DNA from: Bacteroidota bacterium
Lineage (GTDB): Bacteria > Bacteroidota > Ignavibacteria > Ignavibacteriales > Ignavibacteriaceae
Length of the DNA: 64,000 nucleotides
NCBI GenBank assembly: GCA_022564295.1
Contig: JADFLR010000010.1
Coordinates: forward strand, 62,001-126,000
Direction of reading: 5' to 3'
The notes beneath the pieces are model-generated. The model worked only from the letters and a program-made list of their open reading frames with translations, was not told where the DNA came from and searched no databases. The translations under genes and the position numbers were made by a program. Below, in pieces: positions 35,087 through 43,918 of the stretch (positions are counted from its first letter, which is position 1; every line of letters begins with the position of its first letter).

Positions 35087-36871
35087 TTATCGTAGGAGGA
35101 TCATTTTTTTAGTTTCTACAAAACTTCCTGCTTTTAACTGGTAGAAATATATGCCACTAGTGAGGGTTTGATGAATCAAACCCATACTATTAAACTCAAC
35201 CTCATAACTCCCTGCAAGTTTGTGTTCGTTAACAAGTGTTGCAATTTCATTTCCCAAAACATCGTAAACCTTTAAAGTCACAAATTGCCTCTTACTTACT
35301 GCATACTGAATAGTTGTGCTTGGATTAAACGGGTTTGGGTAGTTTTGTTCTAAAGAAAATTCTGTTGGCAGACCAACTTCCAATTCAACAATATCAGAGT
35401 ATTCAAATGTGCCGTCATAATCAATTTGTTTTAATCTGTATTGATATTTTCCTGAAGAAACAGATTCATCAATAAAAGAATAGTTTTGTTGTTCTGTAGT
35501 TGTACCGTGTCCGAAAACAAAACCAATTTTAACCCATCTTTTTGGTCCCCCTCCTGGGAGGGGATTTAGTGGTGGGTTGAGTTTTTGAATCTCAAACCCT
35601 GAATTATTCAATTCAGTTGCAGTACTCCAGTTTAGATGAACATCGGTTCCAATTAAGGAAGCAGCGAATGATATTAACTCTACAGGTATTGGTGGGGTAG
35701 TAACTGTAGCTTCATTGCTATATCTCCACCATTCGAACATTGGTATCTCAAAAATGCCAATTTTATAGGTATAAATGGTTTCATCATTTACTGTACCATC
35801 ATCATAAATACTTGTATTAATATCTACTTCTGCAATATTAAAGTACATATACTGGCTATATTCATTCCCGAATTTTCTTTTAATCCTATGCCCAGTGGCC
35901 ACACCACCACCTGGAGACCAGTTCAATTCAACCCATACAGAATCAGTTGTGAGATCGGAATAGCCAATTGCTATTAAATTTGATGCGGGTGGCGGAGGGG
36001 AAAGAATATCAGAACCTATTACGTAAAAATTATCTATAGCCCACCACGATTCAGAACTACTTTGCACTGTTCTCAATCTAAACAAAAGAGGAAAAGGATT
36101 ATCCCGATATATTTCTGTAATATCTACAATGACTTGATTTTTACGGTTGCTAACCCCCTCTCTTTGCCAGATTATGATCCAACTTAAACCGTTATCATAG
36201 CTCATCTCAACAAGTGCAATATCAGAGGAATCGGTTGTGTACCAATCATTATCCCAATGCACAGATACTTCTGAGGAGTAATCTAAATCTATTGGATTTA
36301 TTAAAGTAGCCGTTGATGATATTGTGTTACCTGACCCACAAGAGGAACCATCTGCTGAAAATATAAACCCATCAGCGGTGACAGGCAAATCATAATTCGA
36401 GTCATCTATATGTATTGTATCCCAAATACAGTCGCCACCTTCGTTAGATATATTCCAGTTACTTGTTCCAGTATGAAAGCTATCTATAAATGAATATGGT
36501 TCATCCGGATGAAATAAATGCCACGTCGTAAAAAGCCAAACATCACCTTCGGTCACACCTGATGAGTCCATTGTATTCACTTTCCAGAAATAAGTTTTTT
36601 TATATTTCAATGGTGAAGGAATCTGAATTGATGTAATAGCAGAACCAGAGTATATATGCGTTAAATAATCAGGATGAATTCCAATCCAGACGTCATTTGA
36701 ATTAGTACCCGGTGGATTATTCCAGGCAACTTCTTGTATATGCATAGAAATTTGAACTGAACTATCCGGTGGATTTGGATTGGAAGTTTTACCAGGTCCT
36801 TGCGCAAACATTGAATAACTAATAATCAGAGCTAAAAAGAAACTCGGTAAAATATATTTTAGAGTTTCCAT
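35087..36871 (-). CDS. Large secreted protein with fibronectin-like regions and T9SS sorting domain
   Basis: A 594-residue exported protein. The signal peptide ends YSMFAQG. The body has an N-terminal fibronectin-III-like domain, a region with paired Trp/Asp strands (WWAIDNFYVIGSD) resembling MAM/jelly-roll domains of surface proteins, and a VELISFAASLIGTDVHLNWSTATELNNSGFEIQ segment widespread in T9SS substrates. Residues about 430-442 (PPLNPLPGGG and flanks) come from a palindromic repeat inserted in frame. The last 80 residues are a T9SS sorting domain (PFNPSTTIQY to KKMILLR). No enzyme active site is visible; a surface or adhesive role is likely. After the stop, a tail at about 35052-35086 reads like the end of another sorting domain. 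Confidence 0.87.
   Translation of the reverse strand: METLKYILPSFFLALIISYSMFAQGPGKTSNPNPPDSSVQISMHIQEVAWNNPPGTNSNDVWIGIHPDYLTHIYSGSAITSIQIPSPLKYKKTYFWKVNTMDSSGVTEGDVWLFTTWHLFHPDEPYSFIDSFHTGTSNWNISNEGGDCIWDTIHIDDSNYDLPVTADGFIFSADGSSCGSGNTISSTATLINPIDLDYSSEVSVHWDNDWYTTDSSDIALVEMSYDNGLSWIIIWQREGVSNRKNQVIVDITEIYRDNPFPLLFRLRTVQSSSESWWAIDNFYVIGSDILSPPPPASNLIAIGYSDLTTDSVWVELNWSPGGGVATGHRIKRKFGNEYSQYMYFNIAEVDINTSIYDDGTVNDETIYTYKIGIFEIPMFEWWRYSNEATVTTPPIPVELISFAASLIGTDVHLNWSTATELNNSGFEIQKLNPPLNPLPGGGPKRWVKIGFVFGHGTTTEQQNYSFIDESVSSGKYQYRLKQIDYDGTFEYSDIVELEVGLPTEFSLEQNYPNPFNPSTTIQYAVSKRQFVTLKVYDVLGNEIATLVNEHKLAGSYEVEFNSMGLIHQTLTSGIYFYQLKAGSFVETKKMILLR
35238..35367 (-). repeat. Near-identical T9SS tail DNA, copy 2
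   Basis: 130 bases, 127 identical to 34007-34136. It encodes the sorting-domain segment of the 35087 gene. The rest of the two proteins is not similar, so only the tail is duplicated. Confidence 0.95.
35546..35580. repeat. REP-like palindromic element inside a coding sequence
   Basis: A CCCCTCC..GGAGGGG palindrome (35549-35564) with a GTGGTGGGTT flank lies inside the 35087 gene, read in frame as a PPLNPLPGGG peptide. Its base composition (G/C-rich) stands out from the AT-rich gene. Similar short palindromes with AACCCACC flanks are dispersed in related genomes and are known to be translated as such peptides; that comparison is from memory. Confidence 0.6.
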
Positions 36872-38839: not shown

Positions 38840-39457
38840 CTATTTATCGTTTTTATCTTTAATCACTTTTTTTTCGATGATTATTTTTTTCATCTTTTTA
38901 TGATTGCCGTCTTCATCAATTTCGAATAGTATTTCGTGTCCGTGTTCCGATTTCATATTATCAAGATATTCTTCAGCTTCTTCTCCCTCAAAGATTTCTG
39001 TTTTTTCCTCTCCGTTCTCTTTAGTGGTTACGGTTACCTTCTTATTGCCGTCTTCGATTTTTATAATTATTTCTTTATCCAAATTATGCAGGAATTTATC
39101 ATCACTAAACCAAATGGCATGGTCACCTATATGTGACTTAAATTCGAAAACTTCCCCAAAGTCGCCATCACATTTAATAATTATATTCTTTGTCCCTTCT
39201 CTTCCTTCTTCATCTATTTTGATTACAAAAGTATCTATTCTTTTTCTATTGAAATGCATTTTTTCAAACAGCTTTTCTGCTTCTTCTCCTTCAAATGTAA
39301 ATTCCTCTCCACCCGCGCTGATGGTTATCTTGTCGATATGACCTTCTATCTCGCTTAATTTATCTTTAAGATTTTCCTGGGCAAAACCAGGTGAGCTTAG
39401 CATAAAAATAATTATTGCCGGGAGAATGATCTTTACGGAAGTTTTTAATTCAAACAT
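38840..39457 (-). CDS. Acidic secreted protein with internal duplication
   Basis: A 205-residue exported protein with AAAGGAG before the ATG. The signal peptide ends SPGFAQE. The mature protein is highly charged (many Glu/Asp and Lys) and appears to contain two copies of one unit: EEFTFEGEEAEKLFEKM near 50-66, and EEKTEIFEGEEAEEYLDNM near 150-168, each followed by a basic/acidic beta stretch. No known domain is recognised. It is divergent from the kinase/regulator pair at 39671, and four phased repeats lie between them, so it may be a target of that regulator. It could be a periplasmic stress or metal-buffering protein; that is speculation. Confidence 0.75.
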   Translation of the reverse strand: MFELKTSVKIILPAIIIFMLSSPGFAQENLKDKLSEIEGHIDKITISAGGEEFTFEGEEAEKLFEKMHFNRKRIDTFVIKIDEEGREGTKNIIIKCDGDFGEVFEFKSHIGDHAIWFSDDKFLHNLDKEIIIKIEDGNKKVTVTTKENGEEKTEIFEGEEAEEYLDNMKSEHGHEILFEIDEDGNHKKMKKIIIEKKVIKDKNDK

Positions 39458-39521
39458 TTAATACTCCTTTAATTTTGTTTATTATTATATATCTAATTTA
39501 GTATTATGACGATTAAGAATG

Positions 39522-39560
39522 TGTTAAAATGCTGTTAATTAATGTTAAAAAATGTTAAAA
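39522..39560. promoter_or_regulatory. Four phased TGTTAA direct repeats, likely response-regulator binding sites
   Basis: TGTTAAAA at 39522, TGTTAATT at 39533, TGTTAAAA at 39543 and TGTTAAAA at 39553, spaced 11, 10 and 10 bases, i.e. one helical turn apart. A weaker GATTAAGAA lies one more turn upstream at 39511. OmpR/PhoB-family regulators bind exactly this type of tandem direct repeat, and such a regulator is encoded at 41232. The cluster is 65-104 bases from the acidic protein start and 111-149 from the kinase start. Confidence 0.65.
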
Positions 39561-39670
39561 TAGAAGTAAAGTTACTTTATATACCTTATTTTTAATGTTA
39601 TGAAATGAGTCCTGCTTGAAGGGGACGAGTTTTCCAATATATAGGGATAAAAATAAAAAATTATAAACAG

Positions 39671-41242
39671 ATGAAAGAGAAAAACTTAAAAATAATTATT
39701 GGGTTGATGAGTGTTGCTCTGCTTGGTTTAATAGCAGTACAGATCTATTGGATAAAGAATGCAATTGAACTTGAGGAGAAACTGTTCGATTACAATGTTA
39801 ATGATGCAATGCACTCCGTTGTAAAAAAAATCAGCCGGCATGAATCAGCAGCTTATGTTATAAATAAGCTGATTAAACCGGACGCAGATGATGTATTTGT
39901 TATTAAGAGTGATTTATTGAATAATGAAGACTTTGTTCTTAGGAAAAAAAGAATGTGGGTTAGCAGCTATAATTATGATGTTTGTGATTCTGATATTGTA
40001 ATTAGATTGGAAGCACGTAAAAATGTTGACAGTTCAAAAGTTATAGTTGAGATCAATACAATCAAAGAGGGACATAAAATTGGCATAACGCAAAAAAGAA
40101 TAATATCATCTGTACAAATTGATTCCATTAAAGTATATAAAGAAAAATTTGTAAGCGAAGTTGTGGAAGAATTAATACTTATTGGTGAAACACAAAATGT
40201 TGAAGAGAGAATAAACGAAAGAGAACTGAATAATTATATTAAGATTAATCTAATTAATAATGGAATCTCTGCTGATTTTATATTTGGAGTTAAATCTGAA
40301 AGAAGAGACACTATACTATTTTTGAAAAATGCTGATCAAATTAGTGAATTAAAAGAATCATTGTACAGAGCGCAGCTTTTTCCCGAAGAACTATTTAGAC
40401 CTGCCAACTATTTGGTACTCTCGTTCCCGAACAGGACAGGATACCTGCTTCGTTCAATTTCCACTGTGTTGCTGATTTCTGCATTATTCATCTTTTCAAT
40501 CATTTTTCTTTATTATAAAACTGTTCAAATCCTCATCAGGCAAAAGAAAGTAGCTGAAATTAAAAATGATCTTATTAATAATATCACTCACGAATTTAAA
40601 ACTCCGATCGCTACAATTACACTTGCCGCTGAAGCACTGAAGGAACCTGAATTAAATAAAGATAGAGTTGCGATAGAAAAATACTCAACTATGATTGGAG
40701 AGGAGAGCAATCGGTTGAAGCATATGGTTGATTCTCTGCTTAATACTGCTTTAATCGAAAATGGAGAGTATAGCCTGGAAAAAAGTGAAATAGATATTCA
40801 CTTTCTTATTGAAAATATAGTTAACAGGAATAATCTCAGATTGGAAACAGCTAACGGTGAAATTGTATTAGAACTACTTGCTGATGATCATCAAGTATTT
40901 GCTGATCAACATCACATCACTAACATATTAAATAACATTGTTGATAATGCTATAAAATATTCTCGATTTAAACCACTAATAAAAATTAGTTCCGTTAACA
41001 AGGGTGACGGTATATCAATTTCAATATCCGATAATGGAATTGGAATAGATAAACATCAGCAGAAAAAAATATTCGACACATTTTACCGCGTGCCCACAGG
41101 AAATATTCAGGATGTAAGAGGTTACGGAATTGGATTAAGTTATGTGAAAAAACTGGTTGAAGCACATGGTGGAATAATCACAGTTGAAAGTAAACTTAAT
41201 AAGGGAACAACATTCAATTTGTTTTTACCACATGGCAGATAA
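39671..41242 (+). CDS. Sensor histidine kinase of the OmpR-partner type
   Basis: Membrane kinase of 523 residues. A membrane helix at about 8-28 and another at about 262-285 flank a 230-residue periplasmic sensor with no recognised domain. There is no HAMP. The H-box is THEFKTP with His307, then the N-box ILNNIVDNAIKYS, G1 ISDNGIGID, an F-box DTFYRVP and G2 GYGIGLSYVKKL, ending FNLFLPHGR. It overlaps the start of the response regulator gene by 11 bases, so the two form a cognate pair. Divergent to the acidic secreted protein gene. Confidence 0.95.
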   Translation: MKEKNLKIIIGLMSVALLGLIAVQIYWIKNAIELEEKLFDYNVNDAMHSVVKKISRHESAAYVINKLIKPDADDVFVIKSDLLNNEDFVLRKKRMWVSSYNYDVCDSDIVIRLEARKNVDSSKVIVEINTIKEGHKIGITQKRIISSVQIDSIKVYKEKFVSEVVEELILIGETQNVEERINERELNNYIKINLINNGISADFIFGVKSERRDTILFLKNADQISELKESLYRAQLFPEELFRPANYLVLSFPNRTGYLLRSISTVLLISALFIFSIIFLYYKTVQILIRQKKVAEIKNDLINNITHEFKTPIATITLAAEALKEPELNKDRVAIEKYSTMIGEESNRLKHMVDSLLNTALIENGEYSLEKSEIDIHFLIENIVNRNNLRLETANGEIVLELLADDHQVFADQHHITNILNNIVDNAIKYSRFKPLIKISSVNKGDGISISISDNGIGIDKHQQKKIFDTFYRVPTGNIQDVRGYGIGLSYVKKLVEAHGGIITVESKLNKGTTFNLFLPHGR

Positions 41243-41930
41243 TAAAAAGAAAATATTATTGGTTGAGGACGATATTAATCTTGGAACAATTTTAAAAGAT
41301 TTTCTTATAATTAAAAACTATGATGTAGATCATGTTCTCGACGGTGTTGAAGGTTTGAATGCATATTATAACGGTTCGTATGATCTACTAATTTTAGATA
41401 TTATGATGCCGAAGAAAGATGGATTTACACTTGCAACGGAAGTAAGAAAGTTAGATAAGAAAACGCCTATTATTTTTCTTACGGCTAAATCATTGGTGGA
41501 TGACAGAATAAAAGGGTTAAAACTTGGAGGCGATGATTATTTAACTAAGCCATTTAGCAGCGAAGAATTATTTCTTAGAATTGAAAATATTTTTAAGCGA
41601 GTCTTTTTATCCACGCATAAGAAAACAATAGTCGATCCCTTACCAATCGGAAAATACATATTTGATTATTCCAGAAGAACTCTACAAATAAACAGCAATG
41701 TGCGAAAACTCACCTCGAAAGAATCTGAACTATTACTAATGCTTGCAATTAGTAAGAATGATGTGGTTGATAGATCTGTTGCACTTGAGGAAATATGGCG
41801 CGACAACACTTATTTTACCTCCAGGAGCATGGATGTTTACATTACCAAACTGAGATCGTATCTAAAGGAAGATCCCACTGTGGAGATAGTGAATATACAT
41901 GGAACGGGTTTCAAACTGCTGGGTCAGTAA
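41232..41930 (+). CDS. OmpR-family response regulator
   Basis: DNA-binding regulator of 232 residues. The ATG at 41232 is preferred; an in-frame start at 41184 would lie far inside the kinase gene and add 16 unrelated residues before MADNKKKILLVEDD. The receiver shows the acidic pocket VEDD (11-14), phospho-acceptor Asp56 in LILDIMMP, Thr in IIFLTAKS, and the switch Lys in LTKPFS. The C-terminal winged-helix domain includes LTSKESELLLMLA and SRSMDVYITKLRSYL. Translationally coupled to the upstream kinase. Confidence 0.96.
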   Translation: MADNKKKILLVEDDINLGTILKDFLIIKNYDVDHVLDGVEGLNAYYNGSYDLLILDIMMPKKDGFTLATEVRKLDKKTPIIFLTAKSLVDDRIKGLKLGGDDYLTKPFSSEELFLRIENIFKRVFLSTHKKTIVDPLPIGKYIFDYSRRTLQINSNVRKLTSKESELLLMLAISKNDVVDRSVALEEIWRDNTYFTSRSMDVYITKLRSYLKEDPTVEIVNIHGTGFKLLGQ

Positions 41931-42019: not shown

Positions 42020-43918
42020 ATGAAATTAGTATTTAATTATTCCGTTCTCACAGTATTAGTTACTGTATTGTTAATATCTTGCTCAACTGAGGAACATTTT
42101 GACGGCAGTTTTTATTACTCACCGGATATAATAAAACCCGGAGAGGATATAACTGTAAAATACAATCCTGATAGCAGTAATCTTGAAGGTAAAGATGATA
42201 TCCGGCTCGTAGCATATCTTTATGGTAATAAACTCAACAATGCTTTAGATATTCCCTTAACTAAAAATGGAAGTATTTATTCAGGTAATGTAAGAACAGA
42301 GGAGAATACACTCGGAGTTTTATTTAAATTTGCATCGGGTGAAGAGATTGATAACAATAACAAAGAAGGTTATGTAGTTTTTCTTTCAAATGACAAGGGT
42401 GATAGAATCGCAGGAAGTCTTGCTGGTTATGGAGAAGCACTCAGTCGTTGGGGTGCTTATTATAGTGACCTGGACCTGGATAGGGAAAAAGCTTATAAAT
42501 TAATTAAAGAAGATTTTGAAAAGAACCCTGAGATAAAAACACGTTTCCTCGATTCATATTTAAAAGTTGTATCCACAGTTAAACCTGAAAAGAAAGATAA
42601 AATAATTAAAAAAGAATTAGAAATACTTGCCGAATCTAATCCATCCAATGAAGAAGATCTTACAGTTTTAGCAGATTGGTATGGTCGAATTGGACCGGAA
42701 GACGAAGCAGATAAATATAAAAGTATTATTTTAGAAAAATATCCAAATAGTGAATTTGCAGAATCTGTTAAAATAAAAGAGTTTAAAAAAGAAGAAGATT
42801 TAAATAAGAAAATAAAAATTGCTGCAGAATTTCAAAAGCAATTCTCTAAGAATGAACATTCGGAGTATTTATACGATCTTATTGCGAATGAATACCGGAA
42901 TAAAAAAGAATATGAAATGGCGCTTAAATTTTTAGAAGAGAATATTGATAAACCAAGTTCATACCGTTTTTATTCAGTTGTTAATAGAATGCTTGACGAA
43001 GATGCCGATATGAATCTTGCACTTAAAATTGCTGATTTAGGCGTTGATAGATCACGGGGTGAATTGAGTAACCCTTCCTTAGAAAAACCATATTATTTAA
43101 CAGCAATTGAATGGAAAAAAGAAAGAGAATATTATCTTGGGCTTAACTTATTTGGAAAGGGTAAAGTACTTAATAGTTTAAATAGAAAAGAGGAAACGCT
43201 TAATATTCTGGAAGAAGCAGCAAAGTTAACCAAAGAAGAGGATGAATTAATTAACGAACTATACGCCAAAGCGTTGATCGAAAATGGAAAGTATGATTTT
43301 GCGATGTCGAAAATTTCGCAGTTTATAAAAACCGGGCATAACACATCTCAGATGAAAACTTATCTGAAAGAAGCATATCTGAATGAAAAAGGAACCGAAG
43401 ATGGATTTGATGCTTATACCTCTCAGTTTGAAGATGCAGCAAAGGAAAAACTGATTGAAAAACTAAAAAACGAAATGATACTCGAGCCTGCATCGTCTTT
43501 TACTTTGTTTGATATTGATGGTAATAAAGTTTCGTTTGATGATTATAAAGGTAAAATAATTATTATAGATTTTTGGGCAACCTGGTGTGGTCCGTGTCTT
43601 GCTTCTTTCCCCGGGATGAAAAAAGTTGTTGAAAAATATGAAAATGATAGTTGGGTTAAATTTTTATTCATCAACACATGGGAACGGGTGGAAGAAAAAA
43701 CTAAAAATGCTGCGGATTTTATCGCGAAGAATGACTATCCTTTTCACGTTTTAATGGATGAAGATAATAAAATCATAGAAAAATATAAAGTGTCGGGAAT
43801 ACCAACTAAGTTTATAATCGATTCTGAAGGGAATATCAGGTTTAAAAGTATTGGCTTTGCAGGCTCGGATGATAAATTGGTTGAAGAATTATCTACAATG
43901 GTAAGTTTAATTAAGTAG
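42020..43918 (+). CDS. Lipoprotein with TPR-like region and C-terminal thioredoxin (TlpA-like) domain
   Basis: About 632 residues from ATG 42020, chosen because it starts a lipoprotein signal (MKLVFNYSVLTVLVTVLLISCS, with the lipobox LISC); the open frame runs further upstream through the regulator gene. After an N-terminal Ig-like domain (about 25-115), a long helical TPR-like region spans about 150-470. The C-terminal thioredoxin fold (about 485-630) has the catalytic FWATWCGPC motif, then GIPTKFIID with the cis-Pro. It probably reduces or isomerises disulfides of exported proteins at the periplasmic face. It is 89 bases after the response regulator, so possibly part of the same regulon. 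Confidence 0.9.
   Translation: MKLVFNYSVLTVLVTVLLISCSTEEHFDGSFYYSPDIIKPGEDITVKYNPDSSNLEGKDDIRLVAYLYGNKLNNALDIPLTKNGSIYSGNVRTEENTLGVLFKFASGEEIDNNNKEGYVVFLSNDKGDRIAGSLAGYGEALSRWGAYYSDLDLDREKAYKLIKEDFEKNPEIKTRFLDSYLKVVSTVKPEKKDKIIKKELEILAESNPSNEEDLTVLADWYGRIGPEDEADKYKSIILEKYPNSEFAESVKIKEFKKEEDLNKKIKIAAEFQKQFSKNEHSEYLYDLIANEYRNKKEYEMALKFLEENIDKPSSYRFYSVVNRMLDEDADMNLALKIADLGVDRSRGELSNPSLEKPYYLTAIEWKKEREYYLGLNLFGKGKVLNSLNRKEETLNILEEAAKLTKEEDELINELYAKALIENGKYDFAMSKISQFIKTGHNTSQMKTYLKEAYLNEKGTEDGFDAYTSQFEDAAKEKLIEKLKNEMILEPASSFTLFDIDGNKVSFDDYKGKIIIIDFWATWCGPCLASFPGMKKVVEKYENDSWVKFLFINTWERVEEKTKNAADFIAKNDYPFHVLMDEDNKIIEKYKVSGIPTKFIIDSEGNIRFKSIGFAGSDDKLVEELSTMVSLIK

Follow-up and report, generated by a model that had tools for sequence, protein, structure and literature searches.

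A tandem array of four TGTTAA repeats is located between a gene encoding an exported charge-rich protein and a divergent kinase-regulator operon. It very probably serves as operator for the RprXY-type two-component system next to it, and is predicted from sequence comparison to act both on the operon of this system and on the exported-protein gene. The window is the whole stretch of DNA that was analysed (64,000 nucleotides); all coordinates refer to it.

In the proposed mechanism, the kinase would phosphorylate the regulator, dimers of which would line up head to tail on the direct repeats, along a single DNA face, so that the four boxes would hold two dimers. The bound regulator would then control the promoter of the kinase-regulator operon (autoregulation), whose predicted -7 element is found 28 nt from box 4, and the promoter of the exported-protein gene, with a predicted -7 element at 21 nt from box 1. 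Boxes of this kind would, in relatives, also recruit the regulator to a small number of other promoters, namely those of MoxR/Bat genes, of envelope peptidase genes and of other exported-protein genes. The RprY-like regulator is the presumed binding protein, the net effect would be an activation, as judged from the position of the array beside the -33 region, and the stimulus presumably concerns the envelope.

The array in the window

The four in-register repeats reported by the first-pass annotation (starts at 39522, 39533, 39543 and 39553, + strand; spacings of 11, 10 and 10 bp) are all exact copies of TGTTAA. They are flanked, as it described, by the divergent exported-protein gene and by the kinase/regulator pair, whose ORFs and domains agree with the description (Table 1). 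A weaker fifth repeat that had been placed at 39511 was rejected: the sequence is GATTAA (4/6 matches) and lies outside the block conserved in relatives. This fifth box is unsupported because the conserved columns end at the fourth box.

Table 1. Features of the locus

Feature a	Position	Strand	Characteristics
Gene of the exported charge-rich protein (divergent)	38840..39457	-	ORF; signal-peptide-like N-terminus; two beta-beta-alpha repeats (low-confidence fold)
Predicted -7 element, exported-protein gene b	39493..39500	-	TAAATTAG; 21 nt from box 1
TGTTAA box 1	39522..39527	+	Exact match; conserved column block in relatives
TGTTAA box 2	39533..39538	+	11 bp from box 1; exact match; conserved block, most variable of the four
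TGTTAA box 3	39543..39548	+	10 bp from box 2; exact match; strongly conserved
TGTTAA box 4 (kinase-proximal)	39553..39558	+	10 bp from box 3; exact match; strongly conserved
Predicted -7 element, kinase-regulator operon b	39587..39594	+	TATTTTTA; 7/8 matches to TAnnTTTG; 28 nt past box 4
RprX-like membrane histidine kinase	39671..41242	+	HisKA and HATPase_c (Pfam); full-length relatives across Bacteroidota
RprY-like response regulator (OmpR/PhoB family)	41232..41930	+	Overlaps the kinase stop; Response_reg (PF00072) and Trans_reg_C (PF00486)

a The features are sorted according to their position in the window. b TAnnTTTG is the -7 promoter element of Bacteroidota.

The repeats could be a chance or mutational tandem repeat devoid of any regulatory role, since the region is A+T-rich and single TGTTAA copies are somewhat over-represented in the 64-kb window (106 found vs 75.7 expected). 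In 300 dinucleotide-preserving shuffles of the window, however, the longest chain at 10 or 11 bp contained two boxes (27/300) or otherwise one, against four in the real sequence. Furthermore, the phase of the boxes and their distance to the promoter are conserved across the phylum while the surrounding sequence diverges. A chance origin is therefore extremely improbable.

In the whole genome (4.07 Mb), a pattern search for GTTAA-N5-GTTAA-N5-GTTAA found one exact site, which is the array itself. No GTTAA pair at 10 or 11 bp was found at any of 19 other histidine-kinase loci retrieved from this genome (about 70 kb scanned). A search for RNA elements at the locus gave no Rfam match at the gathering thresholds.

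Products of the flanking genes

The similarity of the kinase to RprX extends over the whole protein. Its full-length relatives are found throughout Bacteroidota, including in named Bacteroides species, and an RprY-type regulator gene is located beside it, as the next gene, in the window and in most loci of the relatives. The best NCBIfam model for the regulator of the window is RprY (NF051850) with 285 bits, compared with 164 bits for the Bacteroidota PhoB model and 100 bits for the ArcA model. The score falls short of the equivalog cut-off (370 bits), hence the term RprY-like. The 49 regulators that were aligned all match the RprY model, no other model giving a better E-value, and the RSMDV segment of their predicted recognition helix is invariant.

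The exported protein (205 aa) has an acidic mature part (47 D/E vs 30 K/R; pI 4.9). In most orthologous loci, the gene divergent to the kinase encodes a relative of this protein. The protein of the window matches no Pfam or NCBIfam family above cut-off, and membership of the CpxP/Spy family (Spy/LTXXQ) was not found. Its AlphaFold2 model (mean pLDDT of 58) gave no significant PDB match. When it was compared by hhalign with the exported proteins encoded at the divergent position in other Bacteroidota, the alignment covered 33 columns only, around the signal peptide and the first strand (78% probability).

A gene encoding a TlpA-type thioredoxin-like lipoprotein (42020-43918) is located directly downstream of the regulator gene. 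It still adjoins the exported-protein gene in two genomes (G002 and G034) after loss of the kinase and regulator genes. The C-terminus of another product of the window (35087-36871) resembles, by eye, a type IX secretion sorting domain, which suggests that the organism has type IX secretion.

Conservation at orthologous kinase loci

The comparison loci were gathered according to the kinase protein, blind to the DNA. The presence of the repeats at orthologous kinase loci, on which the first-pass annotation had staked its interpretation, is borne out at both depths of comparison. Within the same order, chains of two or more GTTAA boxes at 10 or 11 bp are found upstream of 24/24 kinase orthologs (shuffle mean 0.1), including four whose protein match started within the gene and for which the upstream stretch was set by hand at the kinase start. 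Nine of these orthologs have three or four chained boxes; no shuffle gave three. In the phylum set (Bacteroidota and neighbours), chained GTTAA boxes are found upstream of 59/78 RprX-type kinases (shuffle mean 0.2), the 19 others having no chained array within 250 nt.

The boxes are direct repeats, about 10-11 bp apart and on one strand, as in operators of the OmpR/PhoB type; such a GTTAA pair was found on the opposite strand at one locus only in each set. The distances between boxes in relatives peak at 10, 11, 20-21, 30-31 and 40-41, with further peaks at 14, 17 and 27 that are ascribed to the Bacteroides arrangement. The intergenic sequence outside the boxes is little conserved in relatives. 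Also as for this type of operator, the array adjoins the gene of a regulator carrying a winged-helix Trans_reg_C domain.

One locus (L271; G088, C6:1-5000) harbours a tandem duplication of the exported-protein gene, the array and the 5′ end of the kinase gene. The duplication leaves a second array, identical to the first, followed by a kinase fragment of 133 aa.

Promoter geometry

The 68 sequences in which an array and an exact TAnnTTTG occur together were used to measure how far the last box ends from the kinase -7 element. The gap is 26-29 nt in 57 of them, whereas permutation of the partners gives a mean of 15 and a maximum of 23; such a fixed promoter position is a further feature of OmpR/PhoB-type operators. 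On the other side, an exact divergent TAnnTTTG is found 21 nt from the position of box 1 in five relatives (L029, L032, L034, L042 and L053); other relatives have a near-match. As predicted from these elements, a single array faces two divergent promoters at set distances, beside the -33 region.

A site beside the -33 region is at the usual position of an activator in the OmpR/PhoB family. As this is where the array sits, activation is preferred over repression. The regulator might nevertheless bind the array and repress both divergent genes until signalling relieves the repression (negative autoregulation), given that RprY of P. gingivalis has been proposed to repress chaperone genes (PMC3646045). 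Such repression is rather unlikely: the array ends 27-28 nt upstream of the -7 element, which it leaves uncovered, and on both sides it occupies the position typical of activators according to what is known of the family.

In relatives, the ATG of the kinase gene is found 39-41 nt after the array. In the window, this position is occupied by a mini-ORF (ATG AAA TGA, 39600-39608) and the kinase gene starts 71 nt further, as if a leader had been inserted. In most of the loci L029-L047, the -7 element (27-28 nt from the array) nearly abuts the ATG (about 40 nt from the array). The kinase mRNA of these relatives is therefore probably leaderless.

Similarities to and differences from known systems

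In the CpxP-CpxRA system of E. coli, a regulator-kinase operon is divergent from the gene of an exported protein and the operator lies between them. The window has a similar layout, i.e. a two-component operon divergent from an exported-protein gene with an operator that would be shared between them. It differs in the repeat sequence and in the exported protein, for which no sequence or fold relation was found.

The pho box bound by PhoB consists of direct repeats one helical turn apart, beside the -35 region. The array shares the direct repeats, and the GTTAA triples at phosphate genes of Bacteroidota (see below) suggest a similar half-site. The regulator, however, scores higher on the RprY than on the PhoB model (285 vs 164 bits) and there is no phosphate gene at the window locus.

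Direct-repeat operators with units one helical turn apart are characteristic of OmpR, PhoB and ArcA regulators, and the repeat unit of ArcA closely resembles GTTAA. ArcA boxes of E. coli are made up of direct repeats, two to five in number, spaced by 11 bp and bound cooperatively by dimers (PMC3798270). As ArcA, a member of the OmpR/PhoB family, uses direct repeats about one helical turn apart likewise, the architecture of the array is of a known kind. The array nevertheless differs from ArcA boxes in its spacing (mostly 10 bp, 11 bp for ArcA), in its regulator (100 bits on the ArcA model) and in its location beside the -33 region of divergent promoters, ArcA being typically a repressor.

RprX/RprY of B. 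fragilis and RprY of P. gingivalis are also close to the system of the window. Its kinase-regulator gene order is shared by full-length relatives, including those of named Bacteroides species, and arrays are found before rprX in Bacteroides. Unlike the window, the RprXY loci of Bacteroides have no divergent exported protein and include box spacings of 14 and 17; the regulator of the window, for its part, remains under the RprY equivalog cut-off. In EMSA, P. gingivalis RprY bound the promoter of its own gene as well as those of groES, clpB and dnaK, but not the htpG and sod fragments (PMC3646045), and rprX/rprY is the only two-component regulator reported to be essential in Bacteroides fragilis (PMC4072883). 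No RprY binding motif was found in PMC3646045 and PMC6032018, nor in the passages of PMC5706477 that were searched. The novelty of the motif is provisional, the literature search having covered papers outside subscription.

Association of the array with the kinase and the exported protein

No array is found at the exported-protein homologs of eight genomes without the kinase. In one genome that has the kinase (G062; 4.5 Mb), the homolog is located on another contig yet keeps the array; the exact pair is found only three times in this genome (kinase, exported-protein homolog and inside a gene). The interpretation of the first-pass annotation, in which the repeats are a binding site for the OmpR/PhoB-type regulator within an envelope-sensing module, is supported in part. 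Its operator reading is strongly supported by the comparison with relatives; a shared control of the exported-protein gene is supported by the second -7 element at 21 nt and by this unlinked homolog with its array.

In a same-genus genome (G002; L059, C84), a deletion has joined a truncated exported-protein gene to the final codons of the regulator gene, the kinase, the array and the signal peptide having been lost together. This fusion indicates that the module was ancestrally present and then lost as a block.

At RprX loci of the phylum set, a divergent charge-rich exported protein is found in 17/78 cases, all 17 with an array. Ten divergent exported proteins were scanned: nine have a type IX secretion sorting domain, two have a PDZ domain and one has both. 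As other RprX loci carry the array without such a neighbour, what accompanies the kinase consistently is the array rather than the exported protein. The description of the locus as a self-contained module is not supported, since arrays are also found at MoxR/Bat and peptidase promoters and many Bacteroidota carry the array at the kinase with no divergent exported gene. The envelope-sensing role that went with it is suggested by the gene content.

Other sites and putative regulon

Genome-wide scans were done by pattern search, with the reversed motif as a control. A large regulon of exact motifs in the genome of the window was considered and rejected: TGTTAA pairs with gaps of 3-6 nt are found 23 times (20 for the reversed control), with one exact triple. 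Few other sites of this genome are convincing and none is at MoxR.

In kinase-plus genomes, exact TGTTAA-N4-TGTTAA pairs are found outside the kinase locus upstream of genes encoding a MoxR/Bat ATPase (7 genomes), an M16-type peptidase (4), an efflux-like membrane-fusion protein (3) and a small exported family (3). This last family is itself encoded divergently to the kinase in G070 and G007. The labels other than MoxR and BatA result from a reading of the sequences by eye; the Pfam scan of the regulon proteins, in which all but MoxR were represented by their 70 N-terminal residues, mostly gave little information.

Arrays are found at MoxR promoters in 11/26 kinase-plus genomes and 1/34 kinase-minus genomes (Fisher p = 2e-4, phylogeny not corrected). 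When the seven promoters of the discovery set are removed, the figures are 4/19 and 1/34. The sole kinase-minus exception (G085) belongs to the same genus as a kinase-plus genome (G067), and its exported-protein homolog carries a seemingly decayed array. Genome-wide, exact pairs and reversed controls number 99:76 in kinase-plus genomes and 39:66 in kinase-minus genomes (p = 0.002).

The 40 genomes of the phylum set that were scanned contain 66 GTTAA triples in total; the reversed control gave 23. Besides RprX loci, they are located at RprX-paralogue-like kinase genes, at an HtrA-like gene (one genome) and at phosphate-transport genes. Because of the triples at phosphate genes and at RprX-paralogue-like kinase genes, several regulators of the family seem to share the half-site. 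It does not seem unique to the RprY-like regulator, and a different binder or cross-talk is possible.

The same triples would fit an array that is the operator of another OmpR/PhoB-family regulator (PhoB or a paralogue) controlling the RprXY-like operon, i.e. a cascade instead of autoregulation. Several observations make such a cascade quite improbable, slightly more so than repression by the adjacent regulator. Arrays are found at all kinase orthologs of the order and are largely missing at exported-protein and MoxR genes in genomes without the kinase; none of 19 other kinase loci retrieved from the genome has an array; and the binding of P. gingivalis RprY to its own promoter (PMC3646045) favours control by the adjacent regulator.

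If the array is indeed the operator of the adjacent RprXY-type system, its conservation and its fixed promoter geometry would make the RprXY regulon predictable from Bacteroidota genome sequences. The candidate targets (MoxR/Bat, M16-type and other peptidases, an HtrA-like gene and exported proteins) point to envelope quality control. A broader proposal is made tentatively and, with all its parts taken jointly, is rather doubtful. GTTAA arrays at 10/11 bp would be the ancestral RprXY operator of Bacteroidota and neighbouring phyla, kept at 27-28 nt from the -7 element. They would, in several lineages, also drive an exported protein encoded on the other side, in many cases a type IX secretion cargo or a PDZ protein. 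This protein may be a sentinel whose misfolding or failed export is sensed by RprX, and RprXY would monitor how well the envelope exports and folds proteins.

In three loci (L363, L368 and L377), GTTAA triples, mostly with an 11-bp spacing, are found upstream of genes encoding PiT-like phosphate transporters or of a PhoU-like gene. These triples possibly correspond to a Bacteroidota pho box. In eight others (L340, L341, L351, L352, L366, L370, L375 and L383), they are located between RprX-paralogue-like kinase genes and divergent genes encoding small exported proteins, which are, by eye, either Lys/Cys-rich or GLPGLI-like. This suggests that a triple between an RprX-paralogue-like kinase gene and a divergent exported-protein gene is a recurring layout in Bacteroidota.
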